A stretch of 20,175 nucleotides of DNA from positions 1 through 20,175 of IMG/VR virus record IMGVR_UViG_3300028571_000161, one strand, 5' to 3'. The DNA is from a virus. The notes below the pieces were generated by a model. It saw only the letters and a program-made list of their open reading frames with translations. It was not told the origin of the DNA and did not search any database. Shown here in pieces: positions 2,733 through 20,090 of the stretch; position 1 is the first letter of the stretch; each line of letters begins with the position of its first letter. The position numbers and the translations under genes are program-made.

Positions 2733-3158
2733 TTACTCAACCTCTAAAAGCTCCAAATCAAAAATTAACTTTTGCCCAGCCAACGGATGGTTTGCATCCA
2801 AAACAACAACACTTTCTTTTACTTCAACAACTTTTACAATTACAGGACCATTAGGACCAAATGTTTGTAACATAGCACCTTCTTCTACTCCTTCTGGAAC
2901 ACGATCTTTAGGGATTTCAGTAATCAACTCGTCATTGTAGTCACCATATGCTTCAGTGTGTGGAATTTCTACCGTTTTTTTATCACCAATAGTCATATCA
3001 ATTAATCCAGATTCAAAACCAGGTATTAATTGTCCTTGACCTAACGTTGCTTTAAGTGGTTCACGACCTTCATTCAATGAAGAATCAAAAATAGAACCAT
3101 CTTCCAATCTACCTGTGTAATTTACAGTCACAGTACTGTTTAGACTTACTTTGCTCAT
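2733..3158 (-). CDS. FKBP-type peptidyl-prolyl cis-trans isomerase (SlyD-like)
   Basis: A 141-residue FKBP of the SlyD-like group, which isomerises Xaa-Pro bonds and acts as a folding helper in the cytoplasm; no signal peptide is seen. Family signatures: VTVNYTGRLEDGSIFDSS (about 10-27), GQGQLIPGFESGL (about 40-52) and IGDKKTVEIPHTEAYGDYND (about 57-76). The insert-in-flap domain follows (about 77-120), then the closing strand with DANHPLAGQKLIFDLELLEV. The His-rich metal-binding tail of enterobacterial SlyD is absent. It lacks the [L/I]xE leader of neighbouring genes and runs against them. A candidate host-type promoter lies upstream. In a phage it would be an accessory gene, perhaps helping virion protein folding (inference). 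The family assignment is firm. Confidence 0.95.
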   Translation of the reverse strand: MSKVSLNSTVTVNYTGRLEDGSIFDSSLNEGREPLKATLGQGQLIPGFESGLIDMTIGDKKTVEIPHTEAYGDYNDELITEIPKDRVPEGVEEGAMLQTFGPNGPVIVKVVEVKESVVVLDANHPLAGQKLIFDLELLEVE

Positions 3159-3378: not shown

Positions 3379-3984
3379 TTGGAATCATTAGTAAATAAAA
3401 TTGTTTCGTATTTAACGACAGGGATTAATCTTGATGTTATTACAATTGATTCTAAAAATAAGAAAGAAGAAAAAAAACCAGAAGAAAATTCAAAACTACC
3501 TTCTAAAGTACAATCAGCAATAAATAAACTTAAAACGGTTTATGGTCTTGATATTACACAAAGCCATATAGATAAAGAATTGAAACAAGAGGGCTCTTGG
3601 AGAGAAGACGCTGGGGGTGTAAACCAAGAAGCACAAACAAGTATAAATAAACTAATAAAAGATTGTAATAGTAAATTTGGTTATTTAGGTGGTCTTGTTT
3701 CGGGTTATAGAAGTTATGACAAACAAGTTGATAACTTTGGTAGTAAAGCAGTTAAAAGGGGTATTGATAATACTCAAGCATCAAACACACTACCAGGTTT
3801 TAGTGAACATCATACTGGTAAAGCTTTTGATATTTTTAGTACAGAAGAATCTTGGTGGGATAGCAAACCAGATGTAAAAAAATGGGTTGCAGACAACGCA
3901 AGTAATTATGGTTTTAGAGTAACATATAAAACATCTGGAACATTAAGAGTTGCCGAACCTTGGCATTTATATTATACAAAATAA
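3379..3984 (+). CDS. M15-family peptidase (VanY-like D,D-carboxypeptidase/endopeptidase)
   Basis: A 201-residue zinc peptidase predicted to cut peptide bonds in peptidoglycan. The C-terminal domain (about 100-200) has the VanY/M15 landmarks: SGYRS (108-112), SEHHTGKAFD (142-151) fitting SxHxxGxAxD with zinc ligands H144 and D151, and EPWH (193-196) with catalytic E193 and third ligand H196. The catalytic site looks intact. The start is TTG at 3379, because a stop codon (3367-3369) sits just upstream in frame and no ATG is available. Residues 3-20 (SLVNKIVSYLTTGINLDV) closely match residues 12-30 of the next protein. It is 8 bases upstream of a lysozyme-like gene, so the pair forms a cell-wall-degrading unit. 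The role (lysis or entry) is not decided by sequence. Confidence 0.92.
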   Translation: MESLVNKIVSYLTTGINLDVITIDSKNKKEEKKPEENSKLPSKVQSAINKLKTVYGLDITQSHIDKELKQEGSWREDAGGVNQEAQTSINKLIKDCNSKFGYLGGLVSGYRSYDKQVDNFGSKAVKRGIDNTQASNTLPGFSEHHTGKAFDIFSTEESWWDSKPDVKKWVADNASNYGFRVTYKTSGTLRVAEPWHLYYTK

Positions 3985-5836: not shown

Positions 5837-5845
5837 TATTTATAG
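5837..5845 (+). promoter_or_regulatory. TATTTATAG element before the secreted-protein operon
   Basis: TATTTATAG starting 12 nt before the ATG at 5849. If it is a -7/-10 element, the transcript would begin at or next to the start codon (leaderless or nearly so). Same short spacing as before 8065(-), 12463, 14077(-) and 14111. Confidence 0.4.
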
Positions 5846-5848
5846 TAT

Positions 5849-6442
5849 ATGAAAATTTTGTTATCAATTGTCTTAATTTTTATTAGTGTATTTGCGTTTA
5901 CACAATGTAATGGTGTGCAATCTTTCACATTAACACCTCCACCAGTAGGAAATACATATAATGCCGGTCAAGTTGTAACTATGTGTTATACAATGAATGG
6001 ATACACTCAAGCGGATACTAACTGGATTGAAGGTTTTGATTTAAACTTAGGTCCTGGCTGGGTGTCAGTTACACCACAATCAGCGCCAGCAAACTGTGGT
6101 GGTAATGCGACTGGTGGACAATGGGTTTGGAAAACTTCTGTAACATCAACAACAACACCAATTGTAACAGTTGGTCCTGGTTATTTCTTTGATTTAACCG
6201 TTGACGGGAATCCAGGAAATGATTTTGGTGACGCCGGCTCTTGTATATGGACGTTCTGTGTAACTTTAACTGTGGCAAACGTATGTACACCCCAAAACTT
6301 ATTAATTCAAGTCACACCGGGTTCTGATGGTCTATGGGGAAGCTATACTAGCTCTTCTTGTGACTTAGCAACACCATTTAACGTATTTAACGGAACAATA
6401 AACGTAATCCCAATAGTTTTGGGACCAATAAACCATAATTAA
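5849..6442 (+). CDS. Secreted beta-rich protein, Bacteroidota adhesin-domain-like
   Basis: A 197-residue protein with a Sec signal peptide at 1-19 (MKILLSIVLIFISVFAFTQ), cut probably near residue 19. The mature part is rich in Gly, Thr, Asn, Trp and Cys and is predicted all-beta. Its segments (VVTMCYTMNGYTQADTNWIE, GFDLNLGPGWVSV, GPGYFFDLTVDGNPGNDFGD) resemble domains of large gliding-motility-associated surface proteins of Flavobacteriia. It ends in GPINHN, nearly the same as the end of the next protein (SPIQHN). It is the first of three consecutive secreted-protein genes, with 14 bases before the next. It probably acts at the host cell surface or outside. It lacks the [L/I]xE leader. The function is unknown. 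Confidence 0.85.
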   Translation: MKILLSIVLIFISVFAFTQCNGVQSFTLTPPPVGNTYNAGQVVTMCYTMNGYTQADTNWIEGFDLNLGPGWVSVTPQSAPANCGGNATGGQWVWKTSVTSTTTPIVTVGPGYFFDLTVDGNPGNDFGDAGSCIWTFCVTLTVANVCTPQNLLIQVTPGSDGLWGSYTSSSCDLATPFNVFNGTINVIPIVLGPINHN

Positions 6443-6456
6443 ATAAAAAATAAAAA

Positions 6457-7038
6457 ATGAAAAGAATTTTACTAACTTTAATGACGATGATCTCAACAAT
6501 ATCATTATCTCAATTAACAACAACAAATCCAGATACGGTTTGTTATCAATCAACAGCTCTTTCTACCTATACTATACCATCTGTTGGTTCTGGAACATAT
6601 ACTTGGACTGTTACAGCGTCTGGCGTTATAACCGCAGGTCAAGGAACAAACTCAATTTCTGTTAACTGGTCGGCAGCAGCACCAGGATTAATACCAAATG
6701 GTGTTTCTGTAACCTATTCTTCACCCCCACCAGCTAACTGTCCTGCAACACCAGTCAATTTAAATGTATTAATATACCAAGTTATACCAACAATTACAGT
6801 TTTAGGTCCATTTTGTGAGTCAGATCCTTGTGTAAACCTTGTAGGAACACCTGTTGGGGGTACTTGGTCCGGTGTTGGAGTGGTTGGTAACCAGTTTTGT
6901 CCTGATAACGTAACAAATGGGACTAATGCAACCTCAACTGTTACATATACAGTAGGTTCTGCTGGTTGTACATTCACAACATCTGTTGTTGTACCAGTAT
7001 ATGGAACACCAACATTATCACCTATACAACATAATTAA
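6457..7038 (+). CDS. Secreted Ig/PKD-like protein
   Basis: A 193-residue protein with a Sec signal peptide at 1-19 (MKRILLTLMTMISTISLSQ). The mature part is Thr/Val/Gly-rich with features of PKD/Ig-like modules: GSGTYTWTVTASG (about 44-56), NSISVNWSA (about 65-73), GGTWSGVGVVGNQFCPD (about 133-149) and STVTYTVG. It ends with SPIQHN, matching GPINHN of the preceding protein. Such modules are normally strung together in large Bacteroidota surface proteins; here the module is a free-standing exported protein. Its stop overlaps the next start (TAATG) by one base, so the three genes are likely translated together. An adhesion or surface role is inferred. Confidence 0.85.
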   Translation: MKRILLTLMTMISTISLSQLTTTNPDTVCYQSTALSTYTIPSVGSGTYTWTVTASGVITAGQGTNSISVNWSAAAPGLIPNGVSVTYSSPPPANCPATPVNLNVLIYQVIPTITVLGPFCESDPCVNLVGTPVGGTWSGVGVVGNQFCPDNVTNGTNATSTVTYTVGSAGCTFTTSVVVPVYGTPTLSPIQHN

Positions 7039-7604
7039 TGAAATTAATACTGTTTGTATATTTTTTCTGTCTTTCCCTAGTCACATATAGTCAACATATG
7101 TTTGAATTGTGTGATGGGGAAAGTAAAACAGTCACATATACCTCAATATATGGCGGTGATGGCGTAAATACGTGGACAGTTAACGGAATTGTATATGCTA
7201 TGGAAGACTTAACATACACATTTACACAAACAGGAACATATAATATAGTATTAAGACGTGAAAATGTCATTTGTTATGTTGAAGAATCAATACAAGTTGT
7301 TGTTAATGACTGTCCTGGGGTTATTTACTGGGTGCCAAACTGTTTTACACCGGATGGAAACGAGAATAACCAACTATATGGACCAATTATGGTTAATGGA
7401 TATGATATAAATGGGTTTGAGTTCCTTATTTTTAATCGTTGGGGTAACATAGTATGGGAATCTAATGACCCAAACGGACGTTGGGATGGTACTTTTAATA
7501 ATAAAATGTGCACAGAAGGTGTTTATATCTGGAAACTAGCCTTTAATGTCATTGGAAATGATGATAAAGTCACAAATCACGGACATTTAACGTTAATTAG
7601 GTAA
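7038..7604 (+). CDS. Secreted protein with T9SS type-B (gliding motility) C-terminal domain
   Basis: A 188-residue protein. It has a Sec signal peptide at 1-19 (MKLILFVYFFCLSLVTYSQ), a short PKD/Ig-like domain (about 21-91; GGDGVNTWTVNG, TFTQTGTYNIVL), and then the gliding-motility-associated C-terminal domain (about 99-188). The latter shows NCFTPDGNENNQ (101-112), FEFLIFNRWGNIVWES (127-142), RWDGTFNNK (148-156), EGVYIWKLAF (160-169) and terminal HGHLTLIR. In Bacteroidota this domain is the type-B sorting signal of the type IX secretion system, which moves proteins across the outer membrane. The host must therefore carry T9SS if the protein is to be exported. It is the last gene of the three-gene secreted unit and ends inside an A/T hairpin. 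The domain assignment is strong; the role in a phage is open. Confidence 0.92.
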   Translation: MKLILFVYFFCLSLVTYSQHMFELCDGESKTVTYTSIYGGDGVNTWTVNGIVYAMEDLTYTFTQTGTYNIVLRRENVICYVEESIQVVVNDCPGVIYWVPNCFTPDGNENNQLYGPIMVNGYDINGFEFLIFNRWGNIVWESNDPNGRWDGTFNNKMCTEGVYIWKLAFNVIGNDDKVTNHGHLTLIR

Positions 7605-8646: not shown

Positions 8647-9198
8647 TTATTGTCCTTTAACTAAGTTAATACATTGTTTAAGGTATTCTTTAGCTCTTGG
8701 TGATGGTGTATACTCATCATCTTTTGTTTGTAGCGCTAAAACCCTTTCAATATCCTTAACTAATTCTGTTCCGTGTTCATTTTCTTTATATAATTCAACA
8801 ATCTTATCCATTGCTTTATGACAATCACCAGTTGTTTCGTCGTGATAGTTTTTATTTCTGAATCTATTAAGATTGTGCATCATATCATAAGCTAAATGTG
8901 CTCCACCATCTTTAACGTCCTTAAAAAGTCTTATATTATTTAGAATACCTAAAGTATCAACCATTGAATTAACGCCCATTCTTCTTTTTGAAACTCCGGG
9001 TGAATATTTTACAAATTCATCAGCTTGACCAACCATTTCATCAAGTGGAATCATATTGTCTTCCATACATCTAGGTTTTGGTGGTTCTTTTTTCTTATTT
9101 TCTTTTTGTTCACCACCCATTTGAACATCGCCATTTTCTTTAATTACCTTTTCTATTAAAGCAACAAGCTCACTTTCTGTTAATTTTATTTTTTTCAT
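8647..9198 (-). CDS. Leader-bearing phage protein, unknown function
   Basis: A 183-residue protein beginning with a model leader, MKKIKLTESELVALIEKVIK followed by Glu-Asn-Gly (candidate cleavage after I-K-E, residue 21). A charged linker (about 25-42, QKENKKKEPPKP) leads to a helical domain (about 45-180) with NSMVDTLGILNNIRLFKD and HNLNRFRNKNYHDETTGDCH. No catalytic motif is recognised. The leader suggests packaging into the capsid during assembly (inference). It diverges from the gene at 9277; each has its own TATTTAT element in the shared gap. A terminator follows. Confidence 0.85.
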   Translation of the reverse strand: MKKIKLTESELVALIEKVIKENGDVQMGGEQKENKKKEPPKPRCMEDNMIPLDEMVGQADEFVKYSPGVSKRRMGVNSMVDTLGILNNIRLFKDVKDGGAHLAYDMMHNLNRFRNKNYHDETTGDCHKAMDKIVELYKENEHGTELVKDIERVLALQTKDDEYTPSPRAKEYLKQCINLVKGQ

Positions 9199-9252: not shown

Positions 9253-9276
9253 TAATAAATATCTAAATAGTTGATT

Positions 9277-9885
9277 ATGTTAGACAATATTATAAAAAGA
9301 GTTTTAAATGAAGAATTAAACCACCCTATGGTTCTTACTGAATCAGTAAGTATTTCTAAAAACCTTAAATACCATTTAGATAATAGAATACCTTTATCTG
9401 AAAATGTTTTTAGGATTTTTTCATCCTCATACCTTGAATTAATAAATGAAGTAAGAACACTTTATAATAATGGTTTAATGGATGTTAACGATGAGGACTT
9501 ATGGCTTGTTGAAAGTAATTTAGGTGAGTCGGTAACTCTTGATAATGGAAAAACGATTTGGTTAGATGTTCCATTTGAAATAAAAGAAACAATTAGTGAA
9601 GCGGTACATAGAGGAAAGAAGGTAAACCTTGGAAGTCCTTTTAGAACACCAGGTGGACCAAAGAAATTTGCCGTATATGTTAAAACTCCAGGTGGTGGAG
9701 TTAAAAAAGTAACATTCGGAGATCCAAATTTAAGAGTTAAAAACGCAAATAAAAAAAGAGCAAAATCATTTAGAGCAAGACATAATTGTGACCAGAAAAA
9801 AGATAGAACTACTGCAGGATATTGGTCTTGTAATGTTGGGAGATATGCAAAAAAATTAGGTCTTAAATCATCCAGAAATTGGTAA
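9277..9885 (+). CDS. Leader-bearing protein with conserved phage C-terminal domain
   Basis: A 202-residue protein from ATG 9277; a TTG two codons upstream (9271) is less likely. The leader is MLDNIIKRVLNEELNHPMVL with two possible cut sites, after LNE (12) and LTE (22). The basic C-terminal domain (about 108-202) has KKVTFGDPNLRVKNANKKRA, SFRARHNCD, TTAGYWSCNVGRY and GLKSSRNW. This resembles a conserved basic domain (FGDPNMxIK...KSFRARHxCD...KARYWSC) that I know from T4-like phage virion and morphogenesis proteins of unknown function. Its Cys/His residues could bind metal. It is likely a structural or DNA-associated capsid protein. It is followed 4 bases later by a cupin-like gene. Confidence 0.85.
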   Translation: MLDNIIKRVLNEELNHPMVLTESVSISKNLKYHLDNRIPLSENVFRIFSSSYLELINEVRTLYNNGLMDVNDEDLWLVESNLGESVTLDNGKTIWLDVPFEIKETISEAVHRGKKVNLGSPFRTPGGPKKFAVYVKTPGGGVKKVTFGDPNLRVKNANKKRAKSFRARHNCDQKKDRTTAGYWSCNVGRYAKKLGLKSSRNW

Positions 9886-10566: not shown

Positions 10567-11446
10567 ATGAAAAAAAGATTTGTAATAACAGAAAATGAAA
10601 AAAAAACATATAAGAAATTTATATGGTTTGTTAGTTGAGGTGGTTAATACAACTGGTTGTACTTTTAGTGATGTTTATAAAAACACTTTAACCGATTATA
10701 ATGAAATAATGTCTAAGTATGGTAATGACTTTAATAAAGTTTCTGAAATTTTAACAACTAAAGCAAAAGAAATATTACAGAATGTAAAAAATAAGAATCA
10801 AAATGAAAATCTAGAATTTAGGTCTGCCTGTCAAGTCGCTTTAAATACTATAAGACCAAATTACCAAGATAAACCTTGGTTAATAATAGATCAGGTTAAA
10901 AATACTGTTTATTTTTTTGATAATGGTGGAACATATTTAACTGGGACTTTAGCCATTATGGGAAAAGATAAACCAACCAAAGAATTTGATACTTGGTCTA
11001 AAATGAGTTATGACGAAAGAGTAAAGTCTGGTCTTGGTGACCCAATATCTAAAGCTGGGGGTAAATTTGCACCTACTGGTGTGTTTAACGCTGGACCAGG
11101 ACAAACTTACACACAATATACGGGTGCCGGAACATCAGAAGAACCTAAAAAAAATCTTTGGTCTTATTTTGACGAATCTGGTAAAGAATTAGTACAAGCA
11201 ATACACGGAGTTAAAGACACTAAAGAAAGAAGTGAAGCCTTTAAATGTGTAAATGGTACAACACTAACTAAAGATACAAATTTAGATTTATCTAGTGGTT
11301 GTATAAATTTACCAACAACTTTTTTAGATAAATTAAATAATTTGGGAATTGATATATCCAAGTATAGAATTTTTAGCTTAGGCGATAAAGACTATTTAGT
11401 TAAAAATTCATCAAATGTTGACGATTCAAATATCACGTCCGCGTAA
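10567..11446 (+). CDS. L,D-transpeptidase (YkuD)-like protein; start disrupted by an extra A
   Basis: The main frame runs from ATG 10595 (283 residues). An upstream ATG at 10567, 2 bases after the previous stop, opens MKKRFVITENEKK, then enters A9 (10598-10606); one fewer A would join the frames as ENEKKHIRNLYGLLVE, exactly the leader type of its neighbours with a cut after LVE. The enzyme part (about 93-270, numbered from 10595) shows KPWLIID and VYFF strands, FAPTGVF (158-164), IHG (H204) and SSGCIN (233-238, C236 as nucleophile). This fits the L,D-transpeptidase pattern, except that Ser replaces the His of the usual SHGC. It would cross-link or modify peptidoglycan peptides. Its 3' end overlaps the converging GMP reductase gene by 14 bases. 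The domain call is moderately sure. Confidence 0.8.
10598..10606 (+). other. A9 homopolymer causing an apparent frameshift
   Basis: Nine A between GAAAATG and CATATA. With nine, the frame from 10567 stops after 23 codons; with eight it continues into the long frame and restores a canonical leader. It could be an assembly error, a slippery site or a real inactivating mutation. Confidence 0.7.
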
Positions 11447-12398
11447 CGTATTTAACCGCATTTAAACAAGATAAATCACTAGGATTTCCTCCAGCATAAG
11501 AAATTGCACTTTGTAGTGATTCTTCAATATCATTTAATTTATCAAAAATAGAAACGTCTTTATATGGTACTAATTTTCTAATACCCTCAATTCTATTTGT
11601 CTTACCAGATTGTGAAGATGATGCACTACCCCAAAATTCTTTGTACCAATGTCCATCAATTACGTTTTTAAGTTTGTCTCCTGGTGAATCTATGTATCCA
11701 GATAACATACCACCAACCATAACCATAGAAGCCCCTAAAACAAGACTTTTTGTAATATCACAATGTTCTTTTATTGAGCCGTCAGTAATAATTGGTTTTT
11801 TTGCTACCTTAACACACTTCTTAATCATTGACGCCTGCCAACCACGATTACCAAAGCCAGTTGAGTGATATGTGGTGCAAGCAGATCCTCCACCAATACC
11901 ACATTTAACAGCATCACAACCCCAAGATTCCAAATCAGTAACGGCCTCTGGAGTACAGACATTCCCACCAATTAAAAATACATCTGGCATTTTATTTTTG
12001 ATGTATTTAACCATTTTTTTCATTTTAATAGAATGACCGTGAGCAATATCTACAGTGATAAAGTGTGGTATTAAATCTTCTAATACAAGTTCATCAATTA
12101 GTTTATATGAATTGTCATTTACACCAACAGATATTGAAGAAATTAAGTTATGTTCTTTCATATCTCTCACAAAAGAAACCTCATCAATATTAAATCTGTG
12201 TAATATATAAAAATATCCTTTTTTTGCTAACTCATTTGCCAACTTAACATCTATAATACTTTCCATATTTGCTGGAACTATCGGTAGTTTAAACCTATAA
12301 CCACCAAATAGACAAGTTGTGTCACAATCACTTCTACTCTCAACACGACTAAAGTTTGGTAATAATGTTATATTATCAAAATCAAAAACTCTCTTCAT
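11433..12398 (-). CDS. guaC: GMP reductase (GuaC-like)
   Basis: A 321-residue TIM-barrel enzyme of the IMP dehydrogenase/GMP reductase family. GMP reductase turns GMP into IMP using NADPH and ammonia release, linking guanine to adenine nucleotide supply. Landmarks: DFDNITLLPNFSRVESRSD (6-24), PANMES (42-47), VDIAHGH (116-122), IGGNVCTPE (143-151), CGIGGGSACTT (166-176) with catalytic C174, ITDGSIKEHCDITKSL (204-219), MVMVGGMLSG (225-234) and YAGG (301-304). No CBS domains and a short length favour GMP reductase over IMP dehydrogenase, which CBS-less variants leave slightly open. There is no leader or signal peptide, so it is cytoplasmic. It runs against its neighbours and lacks a TATTTATA element. 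In a phage it would be an auxiliary metabolic gene. Confidence 0.9.
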   Translation of the reverse strand: MKRVFDFDNITLLPNFSRVESRSDCDTTCLFGGYRFKLPIVPANMESIIDVKLANELAKKGYFYILHRFNIDEVSFVRDMKEHNLISSISVGVNDNSYKLIDELVLEDLIPHFITVDIAHGHSIKMKKMVKYIKNKMPDVFLIGGNVCTPEAVTDLESWGCDAVKCGIGGGSACTTYHSTGFGNRGWQASMIKKCVKVAKKPIITDGSIKEHCDITKSLVLGASMVMVGGMLSGYIDSPGDKLKNVIDGHWYKEFWGSASSSQSGKTNRIEGIRKLVPYKDVSIFDKLNDIEESLQSAISYAGGNPSDLSCLNAVKYVTRT

Positions 12399-12462: not shown

Positions 12463-13062
12463 ATGAGATTTAGAAATTTAATTTTGGAAGACGGTAGAAG
12501 AAGGGATGTTATTCGTGCTGTTGTTAAAGATATTATAAAATTATATAAGGATGAATACGAAGGTGAGTTTTATCTTCCTAATTATTATGACGAGGAAAAT
12601 GATTTTTATGAGTTTCCAAATTTAGGGGAAGCTTTTGTTGTGGAAGTTGTATTAGAACAAAATGAAGATTTAGAAAGTTTTAAGGTAAATGCTAATTACT
12701 ACCCTAATGAAGATATAATTGAAGTTGCTATTGAATATAACCCAAATAATAAAACAAGAATGACCTATGATTTGGTTGGTGAATTAAATGAGGTTATCGC
12801 TCACGAAATAAGACATATTGACCAAAAAGTAAAAGGTACTTTTAATTTGGATGGTCCAGAAGAAAAGGACCCACATAAATATTACACACAACCACACGAA
12901 CTTGATGCTCAAGTTTTTGGTTTCAAAAGACTTGCAAAAATAACAAAAACACCAATGGATGTTGTTGTTAAAAGGTGGTTTAAAACACATAAAGAAGTTC
13001 ATAGATTAACTGATGAACAAGCAACTGATGTTATAAGTAAAATATTAAATTATAAAAAATGA
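12463..13062 (+). CDS. Leader-bearing zincin-like metallopeptidase
   Basis: A 199-residue protein with the zinc-binding helix NEVIAHEIRHIDQ (H114, E115, H118) and, further on, YYTQPHELDAQVFGF (141-155), where E146 or a neighbour would be the third ligand, as in gluzincin-type families. It probably cleaves protein; the target is unknown. The N-terminus MRFRNLILE-DGRRR offers a cut after I-L-E (residue 9), so it may be carried inside the capsid and released into the host. A long acidic stretch lies at about 30-75. The stop overlaps the next start (ATGA) by 4 bases, so the two are coupled. The HExxH reading is strong; peptidase activity is inferred. Confidence 0.85.
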   Translation: MRFRNLILEDGRRRDVIRAVVKDIIKLYKDEYEGEFYLPNYYDEENDFYEFPNLGEAFVVEVVLEQNEDLESFKVNANYYPNEDIIEVAIEYNPNNKTRMTYDLVGELNEVIAHEIRHIDQKVKGTFNLDGPEEKDPHKYYTQPHELDAQVFGFKRLAKITKTPMDVVVKRWFKTHKEVHRLTDEQATDVISKILNYKK

Positions 13063-13463
13063 GAGTTCCACCAGAATATACAGCTAAAGTAGAAAAAATA
13101 AAAAATGTTATTTTATCAAGATCTGGTTTAATATCAGAATATGGTCTTAATAATATTAAAATGGAGGTTGAAGAATTTTATACTTCTAATGATAATACTG
13201 TTTCTGAAATTGTATTTAGTCTTAGATTGAATGATGTTGTATGTGATGAATGCGATTTTGAACCACAATTAATTAGTGAAACTATTTTAGAAATAAAAAA
13301 TAAATTAGAAGAAGTTTGTAGTTTTTATATTTCACCAACTTTTGAATTAAAGAGTAGTAAAAGTTCTCTTAGAGGTGTTTTATTTTATGATTGTAAAATT
13401 TGGAGGTCTGAATTTGAATACCTTACATTTGGTATTTTTTATGATGCTGGACAAGAGTATTAA
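13059..13463 (+). CDS. Small unknown protein coupled to the metallopeptidase
   Basis: A 134-residue protein whose start overlaps the metallopeptidase stop (ATGA). Its alternating charged and hydrophobic strands (VSEIVFSLRLNDVV, LRGVLFYDCKIWRS, YLTFGIFYDAG) suggest a small alpha/beta domain. There are four Cys, including CDEC. No family is recognised. Its stop and that of the converging minus-strand gene share the four bases TTAA (13460-13463). Confidence 0.8.
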   Translation: MRVPPEYTAKVEKIKNVILSRSGLISEYGLNNIKMEVEEFYTSNDNTVSEIVFSLRLNDVVCDECDFEPQLISETILEIKNKLEEVCSFYISPTFELKSSKSSLRGVLFYDCKIWRSEFEYLTFGIFYDAGQEY

Positions 13464-14077
13464 GATTTAAACCTTTTTACTATTTCTAACATTAATCTTT
13501 TTGCAAAATTACCACCAAAACTAACAGATAAAAAGGCAAGGCTACGTTCAACCATTTCTTTTACATCAACAGAACTTCCAGATTGTGCCGCTTCATATAA
13601 TTCAGGTAATATTGGAATTAAAAATGTGTAAGCCAACATATTTGATATTTTAGAAGTTGGTATTGCTAGACTTTCAATAAAAGACAAAAAAACATTTTTT
13701 AATTTATTTGCGACTTTTAAAGCACTATCAAATTCAAAAACAAGTTCTTTTTCTTTTATCTTATTTAATACCTTACCTAACATTTCTTTATTTGAGTGGT
13801 AATATGTTAAAATTATACCGGTAGCAATTAGCGATAAATCACTAGACGACATTTCTGGGAAGTTACCTTCAATAAATTCTGAAACTGGCTTTACAAAACC
13901 AGCAATAGTAACACCCCAAGTTGTAAGAAAACTTAAATCCAAACCGACTTGATTTTTTGTTTCTTCACTAACCTTTTTAAAAAAAGATTTTAGACCTTTT
14001 AGTTTATTTAATAGGCCATTTTGCCTTTCTTCTAATAAAATTTTTTTATATTGAGATTCTGATATTATTATCTTCAT
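13460..14077 (-). CDS. Leader-bearing membrane-associated protein
   Basis: A 205-residue protein starting with a typical leader, MKIIISESQYKKILLE, then ERQ (candidate cut after L-L-E, residue 16). An amphipathic basic helix follows (GLLNKLKGLKSFFKKV), then hydrophobic segments around 48-66 (FLTTWGVTIAGFVKPVSEF), 80-95 (DLSLIATGIILTYYHS) and 142-160 (NMLAYTFLIPILPELYEA). It could insert in the host membrane after delivery. No family is recognised. The promoter-like element is 12 nt upstream. It diverges from 14111 and converges on 13463. Confidence 0.82.
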   Translation of the reverse strand: MKIIISESQYKKILLEERQNGLLNKLKGLKSFFKKVSEETKNQVGLDLSFLTTWGVTIAGFVKPVSEFIEGNFPEMSSSDLSLIATGIILTYYHSNKEMLGKVLNKIKEKELVFEFDSALKVANKLKNVFLSFIESLAIPTSKISNMLAYTFLIPILPELYEAAQSGSSVDVKEMVERSLAFLSVSFGGNFAKRLMLEIVKRFKS

Positions 14078-15344: not shown

Positions 15345-15368
15345 AAAAGTCCGTAATTTCTTACGGAC
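15343..15368 (-). terminator. Rho-independent terminator for the lipoprotein gene
   Basis: GTCCGTAA-loop-TTACGGAC, an 8-bp perfect stem (15349-15356 with 15361-15368), with six T after it on the minus strand. The lipoprotein stop codon (15361-15363) is inside the stem. On the plus strand no T-tract follows. Confidence 0.88.
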
Positions 15369-15864
15369 CTACTCTTGTTAAAAATAGTGTTATTGATTCG
15401 TTTGGTCCAGATGAACCATAGGTCCACTGTCCTGTTGAACGCAATACCAAAGTTTCAGCACCATCTTCAATTATATGAAAAACTTTTCTTGTTCCTTCAA
15501 ATTCAATAATTAAATTACCTAAAGCTGTGTTTGTTTCACCAACAACGTTATAAAAATATGCTTTATTCCAAACAGTTGAACCATCTGGCATTGGGTTTGG
15601 TGAAAATCTAATTTGTACATAATCCATATGTAATTTGAAAAATCCAACTGGTATTGAATCAAATGGTGATATATCATTTGGGTTAACATATAAGTCACCA
15701 GGATAGAAAACCATAGATTGTGGTGAAGAACTATTGTCTGTTTGTTCATATGTTATTTTATCAATACGATATTCACCACTCAAAGATAAAAGTTTTGGTT
15801 GTGTGTACTTAACACAAGAACTTAAAGAAATTAAAAGAATAAAAAGTTTAAAAATGGTTTTCAT
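15361..15864 (-). CDS. Secreted lipoprotein
   Basis: A 167-residue lipoprotein. The signal sequence MKTIFKLFILLISLSSC has a lipobox LSSC, with C17 as the lipidated residue. The mature part is beta-rich and lipocalin-like in texture (LLSLSGEYRIDKITYEQTD, VGFFKLHMDYVQIRFS, WNKAYFYNVVGETN, LGNLIIEFEGTRKVFHII, SITLFLTRVGP). No family is recognised. It would be anchored in the host envelope, probably facing the periplasm or the surface. It has a host-type promoter and its own terminator, so it is an independent unit against the surrounding genes. Phage lipoproteins often block infection by other phages; that role is only a hypothesis here. Confidence 0.88.
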   Translation of the reverse strand: MKTIFKLFILLISLSSCVKYTQPKLLSLSGEYRIDKITYEQTDNSSSPQSMVFYPGDLYVNPNDISPFDSIPVGFFKLHMDYVQIRFSPNPMPDGSTVWNKAYFYNVVGETNTALGNLIIEFEGTRKVFHIIEDGAETLVLRSTGQWTYGSSGPNESITLFLTRVGP

Positions 15865-18896: not shown

Positions 18897-20090
18897 ATGA
18901 GAAATGAAAATTTAATCCTTGAAATTAACACGATGAGATCAATGATGGGTCTTAGAGAGAAATCAATGTTAATTACAGAAAGTGCTATTATAGGATTAGC
19001 AAAAGCATTTGGTAAAACAGCAGCAAGACACACCGATGATATTGTAAAAGTTATGGATGACTTTATCTCAACTTCAGCCGCTGGTGGCTCTATGGCAGCA
19101 CAAAGAACAATGGCAACAAGACTAAAAGGTCTTTTAGATAATTTAGATTCTGCTGTTAAAGCAGCAGATGAAGCTGGTATTAAAAGAGCAATGAAAAGTA
19201 TATTAAATGATGCTGATTTTGGGGCTTCAGCTGCCACTAAAATTGCTGATGATATGTTTACGGATACTGCTGATGATGCTATTACTGCGGTTTTAAATAA
19301 AAGAGCTAGTGTTCTAAAAGGTAAAGGAGGTTTAACCGATGACGCTATTAAAGCTCAAATTAAAGAAGATATTAATGCTTTACTTGGTGAATTTCCAGAT
19401 ACACTTAAAACAGCGGCAAAATCAACAGCTGATAAAGTAATAAATTGGGGTGGTAAAGGAGCAACACTTGCAAAAGAATTGACCGCTGACGATGTTTTTG
19501 TTAAATTAGCTGGTGTCGAAACTTGGCGAAAATTTACATCTAAATTTCCTGGTGCAATAGCAGAAATGAATGATGTTATAGATACTTTAATTGCTGCTGG
19601 TGCAAAAAGTGCCGATGAGGTGGTGGCAATTGTTATTAGTAAGGCTGAAAAAGCTTTAAAACCATCAACAGTATCTAGATTAAAAGCATTACTTCTTAAG
19701 AACCCAAAAACAAGTAAATTTGTTGGAATTTTAATTAGTCTTGGAATTTTAAGGGCCGCAGCAGGTGCTTCAGGGCTTTGGAATCAAATTAAACTTTTGG
19801 GTTGTGATATACTTTTTGGTGCGGCAGGTGAAGACTGTCAAGAGTTAAGGCGTTTAATGACCCAAATGGATAAGGAATTGGAGGAAAAAAATAAGCCAAA
19901 AAAAGAAGATAAAAAGAATGAAGACAAACCGGCTGGTAATTGCGATCAAAATTTAGACACATTCAAGGCTTATTTAACAAGTCAAGACGGCTTAAGTTCT
20001 GATGATGCAACTTTTGATGCAAGCACATGTACTGGTTTTATTGATGGAATGACGTTTACATATAATACCACTTCAAATAAGTGGGAATAA
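18897..20090 (+). CDS. Leader-bearing Ala-rich helical protein
   Basis: A 397-residue protein. The leader contains LILEINTMRSMMGL (6-19) and a candidate cut after L-I-T-E (25-28), followed by SAIIGLAKAFGK. The body is almost entirely helical and Ala/Asp/Lys-rich (about 30-290), with one hydrophobic stretch at about 275-292 (FVGILISLGILRAAAGAS). A charged linker (about 325-348) leads to a small Cys-containing C-terminal domain (about 349-397; AGNCDQNLDTFKAYLTS, STCTGFIDGMTFTYN). Together with the preceding gene it looks like another internal virion protein. No family is recognised. Confidence 0.83.
   Translation: MRNENLILEINTMRSMMGLREKSMLITESAIIGLAKAFGKTAARHTDDIVKVMDDFISTSAAGGSMAAQRTMATRLKGLLDNLDSAVKAADEAGIKRAMKSILNDADFGASAATKIADDMFTDTADDAITAVLNKRASVLKGKGGLTDDAIKAQIKEDINALLGEFPDTLKTAAKSTADKVINWGGKGATLAKELTADDVFVKLAGVETWRKFTSKFPGAIAEMNDVIDTLIAAGAKSADEVVAIVISKAEKALKPSTVSRLKALLLKNPKTSKFVGILISLGILRAAAGASGLWNQIKLLGCDILFGAAGEDCQELRRLMTQMDKELEEKNKPKKEDKKNEDKPAGNCDQNLDTFKAYLTSQDGLSSDDATFDASTCTGFIDGMTFTYNTTSNKWE

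Follow-up and report, generated by a model that had tools for sequence, protein, structure and literature searches.

A split, three-gene cassette with a type IX type B sorting domain in huge T4-like phages and its proposed role as a virus-encoded surface fibre

Huge T4-like phages of Flavobacteria-type bacteria carry a cassette for three predicted secreted proteins, g1, g2 and g3. We consider it somewhat probable that these are the subunits of a phage-encoded surface fibre of the type IX secretion system (T9SS), in which short C-terminal tails would link the subunits and the sorting domain of g3 would export them through a shuttle borrowed from the host. The three proteins resemble a host surface adhesin cut into linked pieces, which suggests that the virus would display a fibre of its own on the infected cell. 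In this way huge Bacteroidota phages would gain a handle on the outer surface of the host via the machine that also powers gliding, and the prediction is that virus-coded fibres are present on infected cells. The analysis starts from a window of 20,175 bases, which is an entire IMG/VR record.

The three open frames of the cassette nearly touch, and the g2/g3 junction reads TAATG (Table 1). In each protein a hydrophobic start is followed by glutamine 19, which is invariant in the alignments of 28 g1, 33 g2 and 31 g3 relatives. Because this arrangement fits the Q-rule for signal peptidase I substrates of Bacteroidetes (PMC5837995), Sec signal peptides are predicted for all three, as a preliminary description of three back-to-back genes had claimed. 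The same description had placed a type B sorting domain at the end of the last gene, and g3 indeed passes both profiles of this family, PF13585 (CHU_C; 45.3 bits against the Pfam cut-off of 27) and TIGR04131 (38.8 bits against the NCBIfam cut-off of 35). A PKD_6 domain (PF19408) was recognized in g2 with 35.5 bits (Pfam cut-off, 25). No family match was found for g1 in Pfam, PHROGs or NCBIfam; in PHROGs, g2 had no match and that of g3 was at chance level (E = 0.054). A C-terminal T9SS domain of either type, A or B, is absent from g1 and g2 in the Pfam and NCBIfam searches. By predicted domain content, only g3 counts as a T9SS type B substrate, and g1 and g2 are not classed as T9SS substrates. 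The earlier proposal that the virus uses the T9SS route of the host thus holds for g3, with its type B signal and the established biology of T9SS, whereas for g1 and g2, which have no such signal, we infer T9SS export.

Table 1. Positions of the cassette genes and their parts in the window
Feature	Position	Strand	Product or role	Basis
g1	5849..6442	+	197 aa; predicted secreted beta-sandwich protein of no known family; outermost subunit in the proposed model	ORF, invariant Q19, structure model, homologous bacterial modules
g1 C-terminal tail GPINHN	6422..6439	+		shared by every unfused g1 relative and every g1 replacement ([IV]-x-H-[N/D]-stop)
g2	6457..7038	+	193 aa; predicted secreted protein with two Ig/PKD-like domains; middle subunit in the proposed model	PKD_6, structure model, profile matches to tailed proteins of bacterial operons
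g2 C-terminal tail SPIQHN	7018..7035	+		shared by every unfused g2 relative (PI-x-H-[N/D]-stop)
g3	7038..7604	+	188 aa; predicted secreted protein with PKD-like N-terminal domain and type B T9SS domain; exported anchor in the proposed model	PF13585 and TIGR04131
CHU_C (type B CTD) coding stretch in g3	7332..7592	+		PF13585, E = 3.1e-14 (search of own record)
Promoter-like box TATTTATA of the operon	5837..5844	+		TATTTAT statistics upstream of g1 across phages

For g1, structure modeling gave a beta-sandwich (pLDDT 83.7); the fold search found only weak resemblance to adhesins and pilins, all PDB matches having E > 0.001. The g2 model (pLDDT 87.5) contains two Ig-like domains, and its matches are generic tandem-Ig and cadherin structures. 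These predicted folds fit an extracellular binding or fibre role; the matches, being weak or generic, name neither function nor ligand.

Every unfused g1 and g2 ends in the tail [IV]-x-H-[N/D] directly before the stop codon (PINHN in g1 and PIQHN in g2 of the window). The gene immediately upstream of g2 has this tail in all 63 distinct loci, including those in which an unrelated, longer protein takes the place of g1, either one with SprB-like repeats or, in locus L132, one with an ALK/LTK glycine-rich domain. A survey of 2.5 Mb of loci, covering every ORF with 60 codons or more, yielded 120 distinct ORF ends with the tail, all but one (119) from cassette genes. The profiles of g1 and g2 align at the signal peptide only, so the tail does not come from common descent of the whole proteins, and its explanation as a by-product of homology was rejected. 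That the tail is a common chromosomal motif was also rejected, since the raw counts of two DNA patterns show no enrichment over the control: the first pattern matched 11 times in 199 Flavobacteriales genomes and its reversed control 13 times, and the second matched 29 times in 395 genomes of the class, where its control matched 23 times. These counts give no estimate of frequency, since real chromosomal cases were told apart by their operon context, by the length of the secreted ORFs and by occurrence in tandem.

Some phages encode the same parts in a single chain. In LR745206.1 (635 kb), one protein of 732 aa has g2-like followed by g3-like domains, and in LR756502.1 (642 kb) a 1670-aa protein combines a g1-like domain with a CHU_C end. 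Three further records (G001, G005, G007) hold both the split cassette and a long paralogue. In the alignment, the fused chain runs from an SprB-type repeat through a linker (e.g. TLTDPPQVIINPI), g2, a second linker (e.g. VNPRPQF) and g3 to the CTD. The breaks between the split genes coincide with the two inter-domain linkers, where the tails sit, and it is mainly for this reason that the assembly order g1-g2-g3 is proposed. Domains and their order are thus those of the split cassette, but the fused proteins are one polypeptide and have no internal xHN tails, unlike split g1 and g2. Across their loci (L002, L003, L155-L158), LR745206.1 and LR756502.1 have four and three CHU_C matches, respectively. 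The proteins concerned reach about 1,670 aa and make up a group of large T9SS type B surface proteins encoded by the viruses. An ORF in LR756502.1 (L003:26144-26512) resembles, by eye only, bacterial RnpA (ribonuclease P protein), inside a huge phage genome.

Counterparts also exist in bacteria. When bacterial and archaeal genomes were scanned with g1, matches came from six MAGs, which bear the labels Flavobacteriales, Chryseobacterium or Bacteroidetes. Where the ORF is complete, the g1-like module opens a large surface protein of about 1,300 aa, whose end looks CHU_C-like by eye and whose neighbours are chromosomal genes. Searches with the tail patterns picked out ten loci on chromosomes (L245, L246, L247, L248, L250, L251, L252, L253, L214, L215), whose operons encode one to three secreted, tailed proteins with varied domains (CUB, LTD, TIG, Ig_7). 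In all seven loci that are not cut downstream, a CHU_C gene comes next after the tailed genes, and it is followed by a PorP/SprF gene in six, L252 being the exception. Profile searches connect these operons with the cassette: the best E-values were 4.5e-28 for g2 against their tailed proteins and 4.2e-29 for g3, which aligned to both the N-domain and the CTD of the CHU_C proteins. The PorP/SprF shuttle was found in none of 15 phage records, and the positive control gave three to eight per genome in six of six bacterial genomes. At the level of sequence, the phage cassette is the bacterial operon plan minus the shuttle.

The presence of one tail on unrelated phage and bacterial proteins is a candidate answer to the question of how several secreted subunits share one T9SS domain. 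We tentatively propose that the tail is a novel docking or co-export signal by which subunits lacking a CTD could cross T9SS riding on a single subunit that has one, both in phages and in bacteria, and that huge phages may have adopted this modular system, swapping the outermost subunit and displaying virus-coded fibres via a borrowed host shuttle. If true, such a signal would be a more basic novelty than the phage cassette itself. It is also conceivable, if unlikely, that g1 and g2 are exported or retained in the periplasm independently of g3, that a host envelope factor reads the tail for quality control, processing or anchoring, and that the operon merely co-expresses three surface-related proteins. 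A general factor would fit the tail on proteins of unrelated fold, and the subunit contacts are themselves deduced. Moreover, two of the bacterial loci (L245 and L246) have three tailed proteins ahead of two g2/g3-type proteins, so a strict chain of one tail to one acceptor fails in some loci. However, such independence does not account for the placing of the tailed genes directly before the CHU_C gene in the seven bacterial loci not cut downstream, nor for the fused relatives, whose single chain has these domains in unchanged order. Linked export of the three proteins is the reading followed below.

Its mechanism depends on a shuttle. Type B cargo requires a shuttle of the PorP/SprF family, whose gene usually but not universally lies close by, and three orphan substrates are known to share one (PMC12618676). 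Pairing of a CTD with a non-cognate shuttle was seen at 68% identity but not at 43% or 26% (PMC12618676). Flavobacteriales genomes contain many CHU_C matches, the best sampled CTD being 49% identical to that of g3; with crossover known at 68% but not 43%, this counts against the supposed use of a host shuttle by g3. T9SS moves folded proteins (PMC9251779), and its substrates leave SprA CTD-first (PMC10994853).

Most likely, g3 is the exported anchor to which g1 and g2, judging from their sequences, would be tethered by their tails. In the periplasm, g2 would receive the tail of g1, and g3 that of g2, so that the subunits follow each other as in the fused relatives. The CTD of g3 would then enter SprA and be taken up by a host shuttle of the PorP/SprF type, and the chain would exit CTD-first and remain on the surface of the infected cell. 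Depending on the CTD, cargo joins the gliding machinery or stays at a static site (PMC12618676); the fibre could be fixed or could move along the gliding track, depending on the shuttle. The most likely benefit, and the least certain step, would be that host adhesins usable as phage receptors are displaced or masked, so that competitors are excluded or re-adsorption of progeny is prevented. The preliminary description had suggested surface change, cell aggregation or exclusion of other phages, and adhesion would be a further candidate purpose. We favour surface remodelling against other phages in view of F. columnare, in which phage-resistant cells lose gliding and whose motility apparatus was suggested by the authors as a possible phage receptor (PMC3534065).

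Superinfection could also be excluded with no fibre displayed at all. A type B CTD that arrives without a shuttle might lodge in SprA or titrate the host shuttle, thereby blocking the export of host adhesins and removing the gliding adhesins. This possibility, which we regard as fairly improbable, agrees with the lack of PorP/SprF in the phage records against the bacterial control and with the need of type B cargo for its own shuttle to leave the translocon (PMC12618676), and the gliding loss of resistant F. columnare (PMC3534065) means that adhesin loss could exclude phages. But a blocked translocon would not require g1, the most conserved gene of the cassette (median identity to the window 79%, compared with 61% for g2 and 42% for g3), or freely exchanged outer subunits, and in bacteria, orphan cargo that has no linked shuttle leaves through a shared one (PMC12618676).

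Expression of the cassette is probably under phage control. In 49 of 57 phages, TATTTAT occurs no more than 30 bp ahead of g1; shuffling gave a mean of 6.1, random 30-mers contain the box in 1.7% of cases, and it is found at none of 131 g2 and g3 starts. In the window, TATTTATA is situated within 65 bp upstream of the starts at 846, 3379, 5849, 7619 (minus strand), 9271, 14111, 15937 and 18897. This element, which in reverse complement reads as the T4 late box TATAAATA, may be a common phage promoter. The distribution supports, as a prediction from sequence, a single g1-g2-g3 transcript from a phage promoter. The preliminary description had noted an element ahead of the operon as for virion-type genes and had supposed a late function. 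Co-regulation gains support from the box shared with other operons of the window; a late function is conjectural.

The shared box would also suit an export product that acts on virions, such as a cell-bound fibre that holds progeny phages or spreads them, for example along gliding tracks. Some type B cargo does travel on the gliding track (PMC12618676, PMC12635249), and swarms of a T9SS-driven glider reportedly carry phages with them (PMC10434198). Against this, no virion-binding domain was recognized in the Pfam and fold searches, and we give this alternative little weight. A surface fibre serving to alter the infected cell is still preferred.

No capsid, portal or terminase gene was recognized among the window proteins searched. 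The window is collinear, gene by gene, with L014 and L015, which are stretches of viral contigs of 72 kb (G013) and 127 kb (G008), and most genes have 62-96% protein identity. G008 has the cassette at 17.4-18.5 kb; farther along the contig follow a terminase gene (57.8 kb) and the gene for a T4-type Gp23 capsid protein (66.9 kb). Among 15 large viral records, a terminase family was found in 11, Gp23 over the cut-off in 10 and CHU_C in all 15. The assignment to T4-like phages accordingly refers, by sequence, to Gp23 and terminase on the collinear contigs and not to genes of the 20-kb window itself.

Scans of IMG/VR with g1, g2 and g3 found about 90 contigs (counted by hand), the largest being 436, 296 and 263 kb. 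Unless a contig end cuts the cassette, the three genes almost always stand side by side in unchanged order. Close relatives also have common flanks, and distant ones (e.g. L036, L073, L124, L127, L132) share the cassette alone. A bacterial chromosomal island or an assembly chimera wrongly classed as viral, to which the lack of structural genes in the window and the operons of the same plan in bacteria might point, was rejected as very unlikely, with next to no weight left to it, on account of the gene-by-gene collinearity with contigs bearing Gp23 and terminase and the recurrence of the cassette across the viral contigs. The preliminary description had named two findings that would overturn it, a host island and a failed type B profile search; the DNA proved to be that of a phage, and the g3 domain passed the profiles.

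Several other genes of the window deserve mention. Many proteins (at 1710-2702, 8647-9198, 9271-9885, 12463-13062, 13460-14077 and 18897-20090) start with a short motif such as LxxLI/VxE (e.g. MKKIKLTESELVALIEKVIKE, MNIYLRNLINEDERRR). These starts recall the T4 capsid-targeting sequences cut by the prohead protease, and the proteins are possibly internal head proteins. A likely lipoprotein with an FILLISLSSC start (15361-15864, minus strand), up to 99% identical in near relatives, is a second candidate envelope protein of the phage. The window also encodes an FKBP-type prolyl isomerase (2733-3158, minus strand), an LdcB/VanY-like carboxypeptidase that is likely of endolysin type (3379-3984, plus strand) and a member of the IMP dehydrogenase/GMP reductase family (11433-12398, minus strand) that is 49% identical to a Bacillus phage G protein. 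The longest window protein (887 aa) had no relative in the phage collection.

Phage proteins with T9SS sorting domains have been described before. The products of the type A cargo genes of Cryophage (PMC7468147) were likewise proposed to use host export, and superinfection exclusion was suggested there too. That cargo has one type A domain per protein, on proteins of enzyme or PA14 type, whereas the cassette described here is of type B, consists of three genes, includes tailed partners that lack a CTD and belongs to T4-like huge phages. T9SS sorting domains are also present in a cluster of crAss-like gut phages of Bacteroidota (PMC6949934), where they are tied to BACON repeats, and neither a split cassette nor a tail was described. 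In the sprC-sprD-sprB-sprF operon of Flavobacterium johnsoniae (cited in PMC12635249, PMC9870892), secreted partners are encoded beside a type B adhesin and its shuttle, and SprC moves on the gliding track. Operons of this type end in the shuttle gene sprF, whereas the phage records have no PorP/SprF and fall outside the type. The sprD end, deduced only from a primer on the last 33 bp (PMC9870892), reads GKMAIVK plus three residues, unlike the xHN tail. In the literature searched, which includes few subscription papers, no description was found of type B cargo in phages, of the split cassette, of the tail or of co-export of proteins lacking a CTD. A further likeness is to bacterial type B operons with PorP/SprF (PMC12618676; L245-L248, L250, L251), which likewise have tailed secreted proteins followed by a CHU_C protein with a g3-like N-domain, and whose proteins are g2-like and g3-like by profile. 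These operons encode much longer proteins and a downstream shuttle, in contrast to the three proteins of about 190 aa and no shuttle in phages. Type A T9SS cargo in phages and T9SS domains in the crAss-like cluster are already known; what is new is the split, shuttle-less type B form.
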